Source: Zhongshania aquimaris (GTDB lineage Bacteria; Pseudomonadota; Gammaproteobacteria; Pseudomonadales; Spongiibacteraceae). Taken from it: 64,000 nt of DNA. Made by a program: the position numbers and the translations under genes. Each line of letters opens with the position of its first letter. The stretch's first letter is position 1. The stretch is from assembly GCF_019312595.1 (NCBI RefSeq), contig NZ_JAHWDQ010000001.1, positions 124,001 through 188,000 on the forward strand, written 5' to 3'. This document shows positions 41,722 to 45,167 of this stretch, piece by piece. The notes beneath the pieces were generated by a model. It was not told where the DNA came from and searched no databases. It worked only from the letters and a program-made list of their open reading frames with translations.

Positions 41722-41752
41722 GGCGCTTATCTACATTAAACAGGTAAGCGCC
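41722..41752 (-). terminator. Hairpin after the TpsB-like gene
   Basis: GGCGCTTATCT pairs with AGGTAAGCGCC (one G-T pair) around a nine-base loop, between the convergent pdxJ and TpsB-like genes. On the minus strand CTTTTAAT follows, so it more likely ends the secretion operon. Confidence 0.55.
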
Positions 41753-41766
41753 ATTCAATGGCTTAA

Positions 41767-43431
41767 TTAAAATACCTTTTTGAGTACAACGTAAAAATCT
41801 GCCTCAAGCTTATCTAGCTCATCGCTCGACTCAAAACCATCGTCCATAAGTGGTCTAGCAGCCACAGCATCAAGAGTTATGCCCCAACCTAAGTCAGCTC
41901 CAATACGCACGCCCATATCGGCAATACTGCGCTCAGCACCCGCTGCCCCACTAGCATTCTCAAATTGCGATGCACCGTATTCAACAAATACCGACACCGA
42001 GAGATCAACGCCACCCAATATAAATTTATGAGTAAAATCCGCTGCAGTGAAGTAACCCGAATCACCAGACAATACACCTGGCAGGTAAGCACTAAGTGCG
42101 CTCATACCACCAAGCACCCATTGCTGCTGCTGCGGTAGCTGCTCATCCGCAATTTGCGCCGAGAAATTAAAATTAAGTTCCGAAGCGTCGGATAAAGGCA
42201 GTTTCGCCGCGACCTTTGGCAACACCACAACAAATTCCGCAGTGCGGGTCGTAGGCCCGACTTCGGGCGACGTCGCTGTAGCCGTACCAAGAGTACCGCT
42301 GTCACCAGTTACTCCTGCTTTTAACGACAATTGCGCCGACCAACGGAAGGTTTTGCCGTCCATCAAACTAGCAGAAAAATATTTTGCGCCAAGTTCCACA
42401 GTGCCATATTTTTCGTCTTGCAAACTACCAAAGGAGCCAGCGTCAATTTGCGAATCGATGTATTCTACTTTTTCAAACAGATTAAAACGGTGAGTTATAT
42501 CGGCTGATAATACTTGCTCACCAGTCAGAGCCACCGCGTCAATATCGGCATCTAATGACAAATTTTGTACTGAAGTTGTGGTTGTCGTTGTTCCGCAACC
42601 GATTCCCAATAAACCACAAAGCGGTGTACCGCCAGTCGTCGTTGTGCCAACAATCGTTACCGGACCAAAATCTTGCGAATACTCTGTGTGACTCGCGTTA
42701 ATACCGTATAAGCCGCCCTTGAATGCTCGATCCGCACCTAGTTGAAAGCGGTGATAGTTTTCCCCATTTCGCGACTCACCTAAATCAGTAAACGCCGTTT
42801 CATAGCCAAAAGTTGCTCGCGTACCGTTCTCGAAATTATGGCTTATACCCACATCGCCAAAATAACGGCCAACGTAGCGGCTCCCCTGATTACCAATTTG
42901 GAAAACCACGTCAGTTGAGTCAAAATCCTCTACTGGCCGCGGCTCAAAAACCAGCACAACATCTTCAGGATTATTAGCATCATTCTGATACGATACTGAG
43001 TAATCCATTCCGATCCGCTGACTCTTCACATTTGCCATAACTCGAGCGCGCTCAAACTCAGCCCGCGTTAGATCCGCATCACCAACTAAACCCTCAAAAA
43101 ACTCACCAAGCTGATCGCCCTGGACATCCGCCACTCGACCTTGTACTGCGTGTATATAGACAACATTGCTATCGGGTGCATATTGCATCGTCACCAACAA
43201 ATGACCTTTGCGCAAAACCAGAGAGTTCATTAAAAAAATTGCTTGTGACGGTGTTTTCGCGGCCACGAAAATGGCATCTAACTCGTCGTTACTTAAATAG
43301 TGGGTTCCAGAAACCCGCAACTCGTAACCGATAACCTTCCCAATGTAGCTTGCAGAGGCGCCAGACACTGACTCGATATATTGCGGAGTCGTTAACTGTG
43401 GCGGTAACGCCGGAGGAAAATCAATTGCCAT
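41767..43431 (-). CDS. FhaC/ShlB-like (TpsB) outer-membrane transporter, atypical
   Basis: A 554-residue Omp85-superfamily protein of the two-partner secretion type. One or two POTRA-like segments occupy residues about 33-165 (ELRVSGTHYLSNDELDAIF, GHLLVTMQYAPDSNVVYIHAVQGRV), followed by a 16-strand-like barrel (175-554) ending with Phe. It is oddly lacking a signal peptide: the protein begins MAIDFPPALPPQLTTPQYIE. The loop that normally carries RGY or RGF in GGxSxVRGYxxGxLSGDSGY reads LSAY (446-449). A Thr-rich loop with two Cys lies at 262-288. AAGGA precedes the ATG. It follows the OmpA-repeat gene by 98 bp on the same strand. Function is inferred from fold. Confidence 0.72.
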   Translation of the reverse strand: MAIDFPPALPPQLTTPQYIESVSGASASYIGKVIGYELRVSGTHYLSNDELDAIFVAAKTPSQAIFLMNSLVLRKGHLLVTMQYAPDSNVVYIHAVQGRVADVQGDQLGEFFEGLVGDADLTRAEFERARVMANVKSQRIGMDYSVSYQNDANNPEDVVLVFEPRPVEDFDSTDVVFQIGNQGSRYVGRYFGDVGISHNFENGTRATFGYETAFTDLGESRNGENYHRFQLGADRAFKGGLYGINASHTEYSQDFGPVTIVGTTTTGGTPLCGLLGIGCGTTTTTTSVQNLSLDADIDAVALTGEQVLSADITHRFNLFEKVEYIDSQIDAGSFGSLQDEKYGTVELGAKYFSASLMDGKTFRWSAQLSLKAGVTGDSGTLGTATATSPEVGPTTRTAEFVVVLPKVAAKLPLSDASELNFNFSAQIADEQLPQQQQWVLGGMSALSAYLPGVLSGDSGYFTAADFTHKFILGGVDLSVSVFVEYGASQFENASGAAGAERSIADMGVRIGADLGWGITLDAVAARPLMDDGFESSDELDKLEADFYVVLKKVF

Positions 43432-43496
43432 AAATACAAGTCCTTTGATAAAGGCTTAATATGCAATTGTAAGCATATTAAATTTAATAGAGATTC

Positions 43497-43523
43497 GACG
43501 GGTCAGCCAAAAGCTGACCGTCG
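43497..43523 (-). other. Hairpin between the OmpA-repeat and TpsB-like genes
   Basis: GGTCAGC (43501-43507) pairs with GCTGACC (43513-43519), extended by GACG/CGTC with one bulged base. It lies just after the upstream stop. It could lower transcription of the transporter gene relative to its exported partner. Confidence 0.55.
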
Positions 43524-43529
43524 TCATAA

Positions 43530-45167
43530 TTACTGATCAGCGTTGTTCTGTTCTTTAACGGATTGAAACACGTCACCGTCGAGAATATTCAACTCTACGC
43601 GACGGTTTTCAGCACGCCCTGCCGGATTGTCACTGCCATCGTCATTTTCGTTGCTAGCAACGGGAACAGATTCGCCATAGCCACGATATGCAAGACGCTT
43701 TTCTTCAATGCCTGCTTCGATCAAATAGTTATACACGGTCGCTGCACGAGCGTAAGAAAGACGGATATTGTAGTCATCACTGCCTTTGGCATCAGTATGC
43801 CCATCCACAGCTACCAAGGCTGCTGGCTTAGCCCCAAGAACCCTGACTGCATGTTCAAGAATTGGCAACGACTCTGGCGTAAGATCAGCGCGATCGAATT
43901 CAAAATTAACGCCACGCAAAACAAGCGCCGCATCTTCGGTTAAGTGACAGCCGGTTAAAAAGACTGGCATATCAGCCGGCGTATCTAAACACTCATCGCG
44001 ATCATCACAAACGCCGTCAGCATCCAAATCTTTACAGCTATCCAGCAAAGCTAGATTATTGCGATCCGCGCAGCCCACCCCACCGGTAGCAGCACAATTA
44101 CCTGCATCACCACCACCAGAGCCATCGCCACCATTACCCGCCTCATTCGCTACTGCAACCGTAATTAAACCGCCATTTCCAGATCCAGGCCCGTTCAGCG
44201 CGCCCACAGCGACTAATCCACCATTCGCCGAGTTAGCACCGTTTAATGCACCAACAGCAACGGTTTCGGAATTACCTGAATTATCGCCATTCAACACAGC
44301 AATTGCGCCAAAGTCAGAATTACCGGAATTATCGCCATTCAATACCGCCAGCCCCGCGCTACCGCCATTACCGACATTGTCGCCAGACAAAACAGCTGCG
44401 CCAACAGCATCGCTGTTACCGGAATTACTGCCAGATATTGCAGCTATGCCAGCAAGACTGCCGTTGCCACTATTGCTGCCACTTAAAACAGAAACACCAA
44501 TCAAATCGCCATTGCCTGAATTATTACCAGACAATACTGCAAGACCAATTATGCCGCCGTTACCTGAAGAACCGGGTGTTAACAACGCAATTCCGGCCAA
44601 GCCGTCTGCAGCGGCGTTACCCGAGTCAGCCGCACCAAGTAAGGCTAGACCTATTGGCTGACCATCTAAGCCCGGCAGCGACAACATTTGAGCCATCTGA
44701 ACACCACCAGCAGTAAGCTGGTCGGTAAGACCTTCTAGTGCGCCCACCACGGGAACCACTATCGCTCCCTCAGGACCAACTAAACTGCGCAGTTGCGTGA
44801 CAATGCCGCTTTCATAATTTAAGCCAAGCGCACCTATTAACTGCGACAAGCCCAGTGCATCTAAAGGTATTGCCGTTCCCGAGCCAGTTTTATTTCCAAA
44901 ACCTAGAAGCTCACCGGAAGCCAAGGTAAGGCCTAGATCATTCTCTGGGTTGAGGGCATCCGCGCCAAGAAAGTCATTGTCGCCAGTGCCCACGGGGTCC
45001 AAAACTGAGGCCCCGACGGTCCCGACTGTCGTTCCGACCTCCGATAAAAGCTGAGTTAAACCTAAGGTATTAAGTAGATCTGTAAGAGCATCTGCTGTTG
45101 CAACCGTCGAAAATAACAATGCCATCGTCACAGTAAATATAGACAATAGCTTGCGTAAACACGCCAT
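43530..45167 (-). CDS. Secreted OmpA-domain protein with 16-residue SGN repeats
   Basis: A 545-residue envelope protein. Parts in order: signal peptide (MACLRKLLSIFTVTMALLFSTVATA-DA); a Gly/Leu-rich domain (about 26-173); roughly ten 16-residue repeats of the type L-A-V-L-S-G-x-N-S-G-N-G (174-347); a Gly/Asp linker with two Cys; a thrombospondin-3-like calcium motif (DLDADGVCDDRDECLD); and an OmpA C-terminal peptidoglycan-binding domain (FEFDRADLTPES...GHTDAKGSDDYNIRLS...NRRVEL). The ATG at 45167 is preceded by GGGGAG. It may be a surface or periplasmic beta-solenoid anchored to the wall. The linked TpsB-like gene makes it a candidate exoprotein. No TPS haemagglutination domain is seen. Confidence 0.82.
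   Translation of the reverse strand: MACLRKLLSIFTVTMALLFSTVATADALTDLLNTLGLTQLLSEVGTTVGTVGASVLDPVGTGDNDFLGADALNPENDLGLTLASGELLGFGNKTGSGTAIPLDALGLSQLIGALGLNYESGIVTQLRSLVGPEGAIVVPVVGALEGLTDQLTAGGVQMAQMLSLPGLDGQPIGLALLGAADSGNAAADGLAGIALLTPGSSGNGGIIGLAVLSGNNSGNGDLIGVSVLSGSNSGNGSLAGIAAISGSNSGNSDAVGAAVLSGDNVGNGGSAGLAVLNGDNSGNSDFGAIAVLNGDNSGNSETVAVGALNGANSANGGLVAVGALNGPGSGNGGLITVAVANEAGNGGDGSGGGDAGNCAATGGVGCADRNNLALLDSCKDLDADGVCDDRDECLDTPADMPVFLTGCHLTEDAALVLRGVNFEFDRADLTPESLPILEHAVRVLGAKPAALVAVDGHTDAKGSDDYNIRLSYARAATVYNYLIEAGIEEKRLAYRGYGESVPVASNENDDGSDNPAGRAENRRVELNILDGDVFQSVKEQNNADQ
44127..44648 (-). repeat. 48-bp tandem repeat array (about ten copies) coding the SGN repeats
   Basis: The region codes for successive 16-residue units such as LAVLSGNNSGNGDLIG, VSVLSGSNSGNGSLAG and IAVLNGDNSGNSETVA. 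Most copies are exactly 16 residues; the second is longer by three. The hydrophobic tetrad followed by an Asn/Gly turn is the pattern of a beta-solenoid with one turn per unit. The array ends in a degraded copy (VAVANEAGNGG). Confidence 0.85.

Follow-up and report, generated by a model that had tools for sequence, protein, structure and literature searches.

A TpsB-fold transporter without a Sec signal peptide pairs with OmpA-domain exported proteins in Spongiibacteraceae

Type Vb systems for two-partner secretion, like FhaC/FhaB, CdiB/CdiA and ShlB/ShlA, consist of a transporter of the TpsB fold with two POTRA domains and a 16-stranded barrel and an exported partner, which is encoded by an adjoining gene. 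For HMW1 and HxuA, the part of PMC5422565 that deals with them describes exoproteins held on the cell by their C-terminal part, which the TpsB pore locks in place. ZirTS of Salmonella is a two-partner system that lacks a TPS domain; a passage in PMC2270342 presents ZirT as an intimin-like barrel for which a signal sequence is predicted and which does not belong to Omp85. Omp85 barrels are also connected to peptidoglycan binding: an excerpt of PMC4104836 mentions wall-binding domains, e.g., LysM, as domain architectures associated with one group of Omp85 proteins. Anchors of the OmpA family (Pal, OmpA, OprF) carry an OmpA domain at the C terminus.

The window, a stretch of 64,000 nucleotides from Zhongshania aquimaris, contains a locus that agrees with type Vb in the transporter fold and the adjoining gene of an exported partner. 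However, the family transporter is without signal peptide and L6 arginine and seems to have limited space for a plug helix and a linker, and the window partner shows no TPS-domain match, bears an OmpA domain on the cargo and is encoded first. In contrast to HMW1 and HxuA, a peptidoglycan-binding domain would hold the cargo, and, unlike in the Omp85/LysM architectures, the wall-binding domain is located on a separate exported partner. In contrast to Pal, OmpA and OprF, the OmpA domain is joined here to an exported cargo, with a TpsB-like barrel as its counterpart. Among the matches listed for open-licence PMC titles and abstracts, neither a TpsB protein without signal peptide nor an OmpA-anchored TpsA was found. 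We assign a probability of about 0.58 to the reading that the pair is a new variant of two-partner secretion, in which a Sec-exported cargo is threaded outwards while its OmpA domain retains it on the wall. Such a pair would bring together a barrel for protein export and a cargo that carries its own wall anchor.

The partner protein and the transporter fold

All features described here are located on the reverse strand (-) of the window. The partner gene (43530..45167) encodes 545 aa from the ATG at 45167. Its N-terminus, MACLRKLLSIFTVTMALLFSTVATA followed by D, was recognized as a signal peptide from the sequence (45093..45167), with the cleavage site judged by eye. SGN repeats with a period of 16 residues extend from 44133 to 44636 (limits approximate). 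Orthologues vary by insertion of whole SGN units (by eye), and Tandem Repeats Finder reported no SGN array at the DNA level. AlphaFold modelled the partner poorly (mean pLDDT 51, about 50-77 in the SGN part), with one strand per 16 residues. The cysteine-flanked DxDxDGVCD linker (43947..44036) recurs in each of the genome's four partners and is presumably of the calcium type, as judged by its motif. The C-terminal OmpA-like domain (43635..43904) matches PF00691 with an E value of 1.1e-17, beside a single Pfam match below the cut-off (E 0.38), and places the protein in the OmpA family; from family knowledge, we take it to bind peptidoglycan. No N-terminal TPS domain was detected in the window partner, for which only OmpA-type matches were obtained (in one scan, the best 25 of 40 families).

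The transporter gene (41767..43431) encodes 554 aa. Its AlphaFold model (pLDDT 87, pTM 0.80) predicts a TpsB-fold barrel with two POTRA domains and 16 strands. The best match of this model in the PDB by Foldseek is CdiB (6wim, E 1.8e-22, TM 0.65), and FhaC (4ql0) was found with an E value of 2.1e-21. POTRA 1 (residues about 29-97, 43141..43347) and POTRA 2 (residues about 99-166, 42934..43137) were read by eye from the elements of the model, while the barrel (residues 173-553, 41773..42915) was delimited by model and Foldseek with strands counted by hand. In the model, the helix at residues 16-23 is the sole element before POTRA 1, which begins near residue 29. The predicted structure would leave little room for a plug helix of the FhaC type and a linker. 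ShlB (PF03865) is the sole Pfam match of the window transporter (E 9e-7, 29.1 bits, cut-off 22.7) and is matched by 35 of the 38 transporters of set A3 at E 0.01. Pfam POTRA_2 was not matched, the 38 transporters gave nothing in NCBIfam at E 0.01, and neither the window transporter nor profile A3 matched the PDB by sequence. These results agree with the first-pass annotation, which had placed two open reading frames in the order, strand, 98-bp spacing and coordinates given here and had called them an FhaC/ShlB-like transporter and an upstream protein of SGN repeats, a calcium-type linker and an OmpA domain, lacking a TPS domain of the haemagglutination type.

The transporter start and the lid-lock motifs

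For comparison, 73 transporters from the 21 Spongiibacteraceae genomes drawn were analyzed. All of them begin with M(A/P)ID, and the start motif of the window transporter, MAIDFPPALPPQ (43396..43431), has M1, I3, D4 and P11 in 73/73. A start of the same kind was also found in L084, L085 and L090. Outside the family the only match to the motif is G012:C4:130156, a 101-residue frame unlike the transporter, which was taken as a chance match. A Sec signal peptide was found in none of the 73 transporters by analysis of frames and starts and by a hydrophobicity scan for 12-mers with a mean Kyte-Doolittle value ≥1.8. Such a 12-mer occurs in the first 25 residues plus upstream frame of only one transporter; when 45 rather than 25 residues were scanned, six were flagged, and in five of these the 12-mer lies at residues 28-43. 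All 14 control TpsB frames have a hydrophobic 12-mer (1.86-3.18) within their first 80 residues. The codons immediately 5' of the start are mildly hydrophobic in the SGN clade (1.78 in the window, 1.81 in L099).

Barrel columns including G441, G442, P451, G452 and D457 are invariant in the 73 transporters, and 71 of them end with F, Y or W. A terminal aromatic residue is usual in outer-membrane barrels, and since it is kept, the barrel presumably still reaches the outer membrane. The arginine in L6 of the Omp85 lid-lock is absent in 73/73; in the window, LSAY (42085..42096) replaces (V/I)RG(Y/F). The 14 controls have arginine (13) or lysine (1). In strand 13, the FVEYG motif (41974..41988) carries Glu at the Asp position of (F/G)xDxG in all 73 copies. 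Only the loss of the L6 arginine is telling, because Asp was kept in just 9 of the 14 controls (Glu 2, Tyr 2, Ser 1). The family offers a natural experiment on the need for the lid-lock salt bridge in Omp85 proteins. Sequence and model show a branch of TpsB which starts with M-A-I-D-L-P-P-x-x-P-P, lacks signal peptide and L6 arginine and seems to leave little space for plug and linker.

Pairing in Spongiibacteraceae and remote relatives

Co-occurrence across genomes had been named beforehand as a test of the pairing, and it was observed within the family. All 21 genomes contain two to five copies each, and 72 of the 73 transporter genes directly follow an OmpA-domain gene with a gap of 16-209 bp. 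The OmpA domain in partners outside the window was detected by a profile built from four partners. In the remaining copy, L157, the preceding gene encodes a protein of 251 residues whose start resembles a signal peptide (by eye) and which matches nothing in Pfam. Of the 72 partners, 69 have a hydrophobic 12-mer (mean ≥1.8) among the initial 90 codons of their frame. Like TpsA exoproteins, the partners have a signal peptide and a gene adjoining tpsB. The distances among partners (last 220 residues) and among transporters correlate with 0.811, compared to a mean of 0.085 and a maximum of 0.195 in 500 re-pairings within genomes. The same nearest neighbour in another genome was found for 45/72 pairs (re-pairings: mean 11.8, maximum 28). 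The two families co-evolve, and chance neighbours are ruled out by the 72/73 pairing and the re-pairing test. At the four loci of the genome (12-14 kb each, ORFs ≥100 aa), only transporter and partner recur, and no third gene is common to them.

The first-pass annotation had described the pair as a transporter with an OmpA-anchored SGN-repeat protein. SGN repeats were found in only 15 of the 72 partners and were rejected as the defining part of the pairing. What stays constant in the partner is the OmpA domain. Cargo comes in at least three types, SGN repeats being only one, so that the transporter pairs with the exported OmpA-domain protein itself. The partners of L134 and L136 reach about 1600 aa, and 41/72 are short (207-375 residues from the first Met) and without either repeat type.

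In other families of the order, 0/36 genomes matched at E 1e-20. Surveys at E 1e-12, with overlapping draws, yielded 25/390 genomes in the order (18 of the family, 7 weak with ≤58 bits), 8/369 in the class (own, G503, G619, G475, G598 and 3 weak) and 9/398 in the phylum (own, G934 and 7 weak). In the order of G934, two of 250 genomes matched at E 1e-20, namely G934 and G555, the latter with a control TpsB. G475 and G503 belong to orders of two genomes each, both matching. A tblastn search of the plasmid collection gave no match. In remote lineages, the exported cargo and the OmpA protein are encoded apart, next to a transporter of this type. L084 encodes an SGN protein, an OmpA protein and the transporter consecutively as separate genes, L090 an SGN protein and then the transporter, and L186 and L187 the transporter, an exported protein and an OmpA protein in this order. 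The cargo proteins of L084, L090, L186 and L157 gave nothing in NCBIfam at E 1. A transporter that elsewhere typically adjoins a classical TPS exoprotein had been expected to speak against the new pairing. One case was found, in the remote L185, where the transporter is followed by a TIGR01901 exoprotein (NCBIfam, 38.2 bits, cut-off 29.1) without match in Pfam or, by sequence, in the PDB; we read it as a hint of a TPS-like function.

Proposed function and intergenic elements

In the proposed secretion mechanism, the partner would enter the periplasm via Sec by its signal peptide. Fold and co-evolution suggest that the two POTRA domains of the neighbouring 16-stranded barrel would receive its N-terminal cargo, which would then be threaded outwards; this cargo consists of SGN repeats here and, in paralogues, of other repeats or of a short stretch. 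The C-terminal linker and OmpA domain would remain in the periplasm on the peptidoglycan, leaving the cargo displayed yet tied to the wall. The barrel itself would reach the outer membrane by a route which its sequence does not reveal.

The loss of the L6 arginine counts against secretion, and so do the 41 short partners without repeats, which would have little cargo to secrete. The poor model of the partner and the absence of a Pfam match for the L185 exoprotein weaken this reading as well. The lost arginine and the short partners, together with the OmpA domain as the constant part, would fit a fixed outer-membrane complex without secretion, where the N-terminus of the partner docks to the POTRA domains and its OmpA domain tethers the barrel to the peptidoglycan. 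We consider such a complex unlikely in view of the two very long partners, the TPS-domain exoprotein in L185 and the exported proteins without OmpA match that lie next to such a transporter in L090, L084, L186, L187 and L157 (by Pfam in all but L187). The missing signal peptide counts against any outer-membrane role of the transporter, since outer-membrane barrels are, to our knowledge, held to require a Sec signal peptide and we know of no exit from the cytoplasm for a barrel without one. The transporter could accordingly have been recruited to a task in the cytoplasm or inner membrane, with POTRA domains and barrel as relics. This seems improbable given the terminal aromatic residue, the invariant barrel columns, the confident TpsB fold and the tight pairing with an exported protein.

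An ordinary two-partner system, whose signal peptide escaped detection because the start codon was misassigned or because of a frameshift or readthrough out of the partner gene, is very improbable and was rejected on frame, start-codon and Shine-Dalgarno data. It would agree with known TpsB proteins, which a passage in PMC2270342 describes as thought to be exported by Sec, with the 24/72 gene pairs in the same frame and with one copy in L118, which has a TTG 15 codons upstream and a short hydrophobic stretch. However, a stop codon lies immediately 5' of the ATG in 11/73 transporters, only 0-33 codons (median 6) are open upstream of the start, and an upstream in-frame ATG, GTG or TTG, at most 15 codons away, occurs in only 8/73. 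A Shine-Dalgarno 4-mer precedes 65/73 starts, compared to 7% of 1597 gene-internal ATGs. The phases of partner and transporter are spread over the three frames (24/20/28), and the start is of the same kind in all copies and in L084, L085 and L090. As to the route taken by the barrel under the secretion reading, the conserved N terminus might itself be, or serve, an exit from the cytoplasm without signal peptide across the whole TpsB branch; we propose this only tentatively. Such an exception to the Sec signal-peptide rule would be directly testable with 73 uninterrupted copies and several hosts that are culture-collection strains.

A hairpin between the two genes and a terminator after them had also been proposed. 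The stretch 3' of the transporter, with a stem-loop at 41722..41752 as possible terminator, folds better than 200/200 shuffled sequences (z -3.7), but a consensus terminator scan listed no stem there. A spacer hairpin as a general feature of the family was rejected, since just 18 of the 50 spacers with ≥40 nt in the family gave a z below -2 (mononucleotide shuffles). In the window, the 98-bp spacer (43432..43529), which contains AAGGA ahead of the start of the transporter and hairpins at about 43496-43524 and 43455-43481, folds better than 200/200 shuffles (z -5.2). In five orthologues, 5 of the 24 pairs of these hairpins are kept by double changes, with a weak covariation term of -0.28.

The gene pair and its occurrence in Spongiibacteraceae

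The first-pass annotation had described an exported protein with an OmpA domain followed by a FhaC/ShlB-like transporter, and re-examination of open reading frames, gene order and domains bore out this description of both genes. The partner (43530-45167, minus strand) consists of a signal peptide, SGN repeats with a 16-residue unit, a DxDxDGVCD linker flanked by cysteines and the OmpA domain. The transporter (41767-43431, minus strand) has PF03865 as its sole Pfam match. The spacer between them (43432-43529) folds strongly (z -5.2), and this fold possibly sets the ratio of partner to transporter. Some base pairs of the spacer are retained via double changes across five orthologues.

Three further transporters with 42-45% identity to that of the window were found in the source genome, each immediately preceded by an OmpA-domain gene. 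A transporter profile was searched in 57 relatives at a cut-off of E 1e-20 and matched 21, exactly the 21 Spongiibacteraceae genomes drawn (73 copies, 2-5 per genome), with no match in the 36 genomes that represent as many other families within the order. This search is free of start-motif bias. A scan of a species collection by two peptide patterns, one of them the start motif and the result therefore motif-biased, gave 37 loci; 34 of these correspond to Zhongshania, Spongiibacter, Neomelitea, Litorivivens and other Spongiibacteraceae, with taxon names taken from matching named records. PF03865 (E 1e-5) matched 17 of the 18 genomes of the genus at 37 places, all of which fall within copies of this family when coordinates are compared by eye.

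The pairing proposed from gene order proved to be real. 72 of the 73 transporters lie immediately 3' of a co-oriented OmpA-domain gene (gap 16-209 bp; domain detected by a profile from the four partners of the source genome). Partner and transporter distances correlate at 0.811, whereas 500 within-genome re-pairings averaged 0.085 and never exceeded 0.195. The sole exception, at locus L157 (2998-5479, minus strand), has the most diverged start of the family (MAIDMLPAMQP) and follows an exported-looking protein of 251 residues with no Pfam match. In two genus genomes (loci L118 and L121), two complete SGN partner-transporter pairs stand in tandem; about 4.2 kb separates their starts, an arrangement that would fit duplication or gathering of the whole pair.

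Transporter fold and amino terminus

A PDB sequence search with the transporter gave no matches at E 1. The AlphaFold model, run on 38 relatives (pLDDT 87, pTM 0.80), contains two POTRA domains and 16 barrel strands by our count, and its top Foldseek matches among solved structures are CdiB and FhaC; despite the missing PDB sequence match, the predicted fold is that of TpsB. In FhaC, R450 of the L6 motif (V/I)RG(Y/F) is salt-bridged to D492 of (F/G)xDxG, as described in an excerpt of PMC4490367. Unlike FhaC, the family has no arginine at the aligned position in any of 73 copies (S 60, N 5, A 5, H 2, G 1), and judged from the alignment the L6 arginine is lost; 13 of 14 control TpsB, the weak matches outside the family from wider genome surveys, carry Arg and one Lys. 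The strand-13 position is Glu in 73/73 copies, which alone is uninformative because only nine of the 14 controls have Asp there and two have Glu.

Judged by start site, upstream frame and hydropathy, the family transporters are without a signal peptide. All 73 open with M[AP]ID[LFM] (MAIDLPP 60, MAIDFPP 8, MAIDFPS 2, MPIDLPP 2, MAIDMLP 1), with M1, I3, D4 and P11 invariant. A Shine-Dalgarno 4-mer precedes 65 of the 73 starts versus 7% of 1597 gene-internal ATGs. The open frame upstream spans 0-33 codons (median 6; 0 in 11 copies), and an in-frame ATG, GTG or TTG occurs in only eight copies, 1-15 codons away; only one of these, an L118 copy, gains a short hydrophobic stretch from it. The scan for a 12-mer with mean hydropathy of at least 1.8 was positive in 1/73 transporters over the upstream frame and first 25 residues, and in 6/73 when extended to 45 residues (five at residues 28-43). 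The same scan was positive in 69/72 partner frames (first 90 codons) and 14/14 control TpsB frames (first 80 residues). Of the 61 occurrences of a degenerate DNA motif for the start across 18 genomes, 60 coincide by eye with transporter starts and the remaining one is unrelated; a control pattern did not occur in these genomes.

Remote relatives, possible export route and partner repeats

Six remote relatives outside Spongiibacteraceae, from four lineages (L084 with L085, L090, L185, L186, L187), have no signal peptide by eye either. Three consecutive genes at L084 encode an SGN protein that lacks an OmpA match, a distinct OmpA protein and the transporter. At L090, the transporter is preceded by an SGN protein of 603 residues, and an OmpA gene, found with a profile built here, lies on the opposite strand about 1.6 kb past the transporter. 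L186 and L187 show the order transporter, exported protein, OmpA barrel protein (export signals at L084, L090, L186 and L187 judged by eye; Pfam scan of L084, L090 and L186). Cargo and anchor are thus one protein in Spongiibacteraceae and separate genes in remote lineages; by Rosetta-stone reasoning, they and the transporter would act together. At L185, the transporter adjoins a TPS-domain exoprotein that matches TIGR01901 and nothing in Pfam; the L085 contig ends too early to show neighbours. LuxR-like regulator genes, recognized by eye from their C-terminal ends, adjoin the transporter in two lineages (L084, 7589-8530, minus strand; L090, 5089-6114, plus strand).

In the proposed mechanism, the partner would be exported via Sec, taken up by the POTRA domains, threaded through the transporter barrel and held on peptidoglycan by its OmpA domain.

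SGN repeats occur in 15 of the 72 partners and TDPVDG-type repeats in 16; the other 41 have neither type. By eye, the TDPVDG-type partners occupy a whole clade of 16 in the tree, and the SGN partners sit within another clade of 19. The longest partners found, at L134 and L136 (about 1600 residues as read), have TDPVDG-type repeats that look helical by eye, not solenoid.
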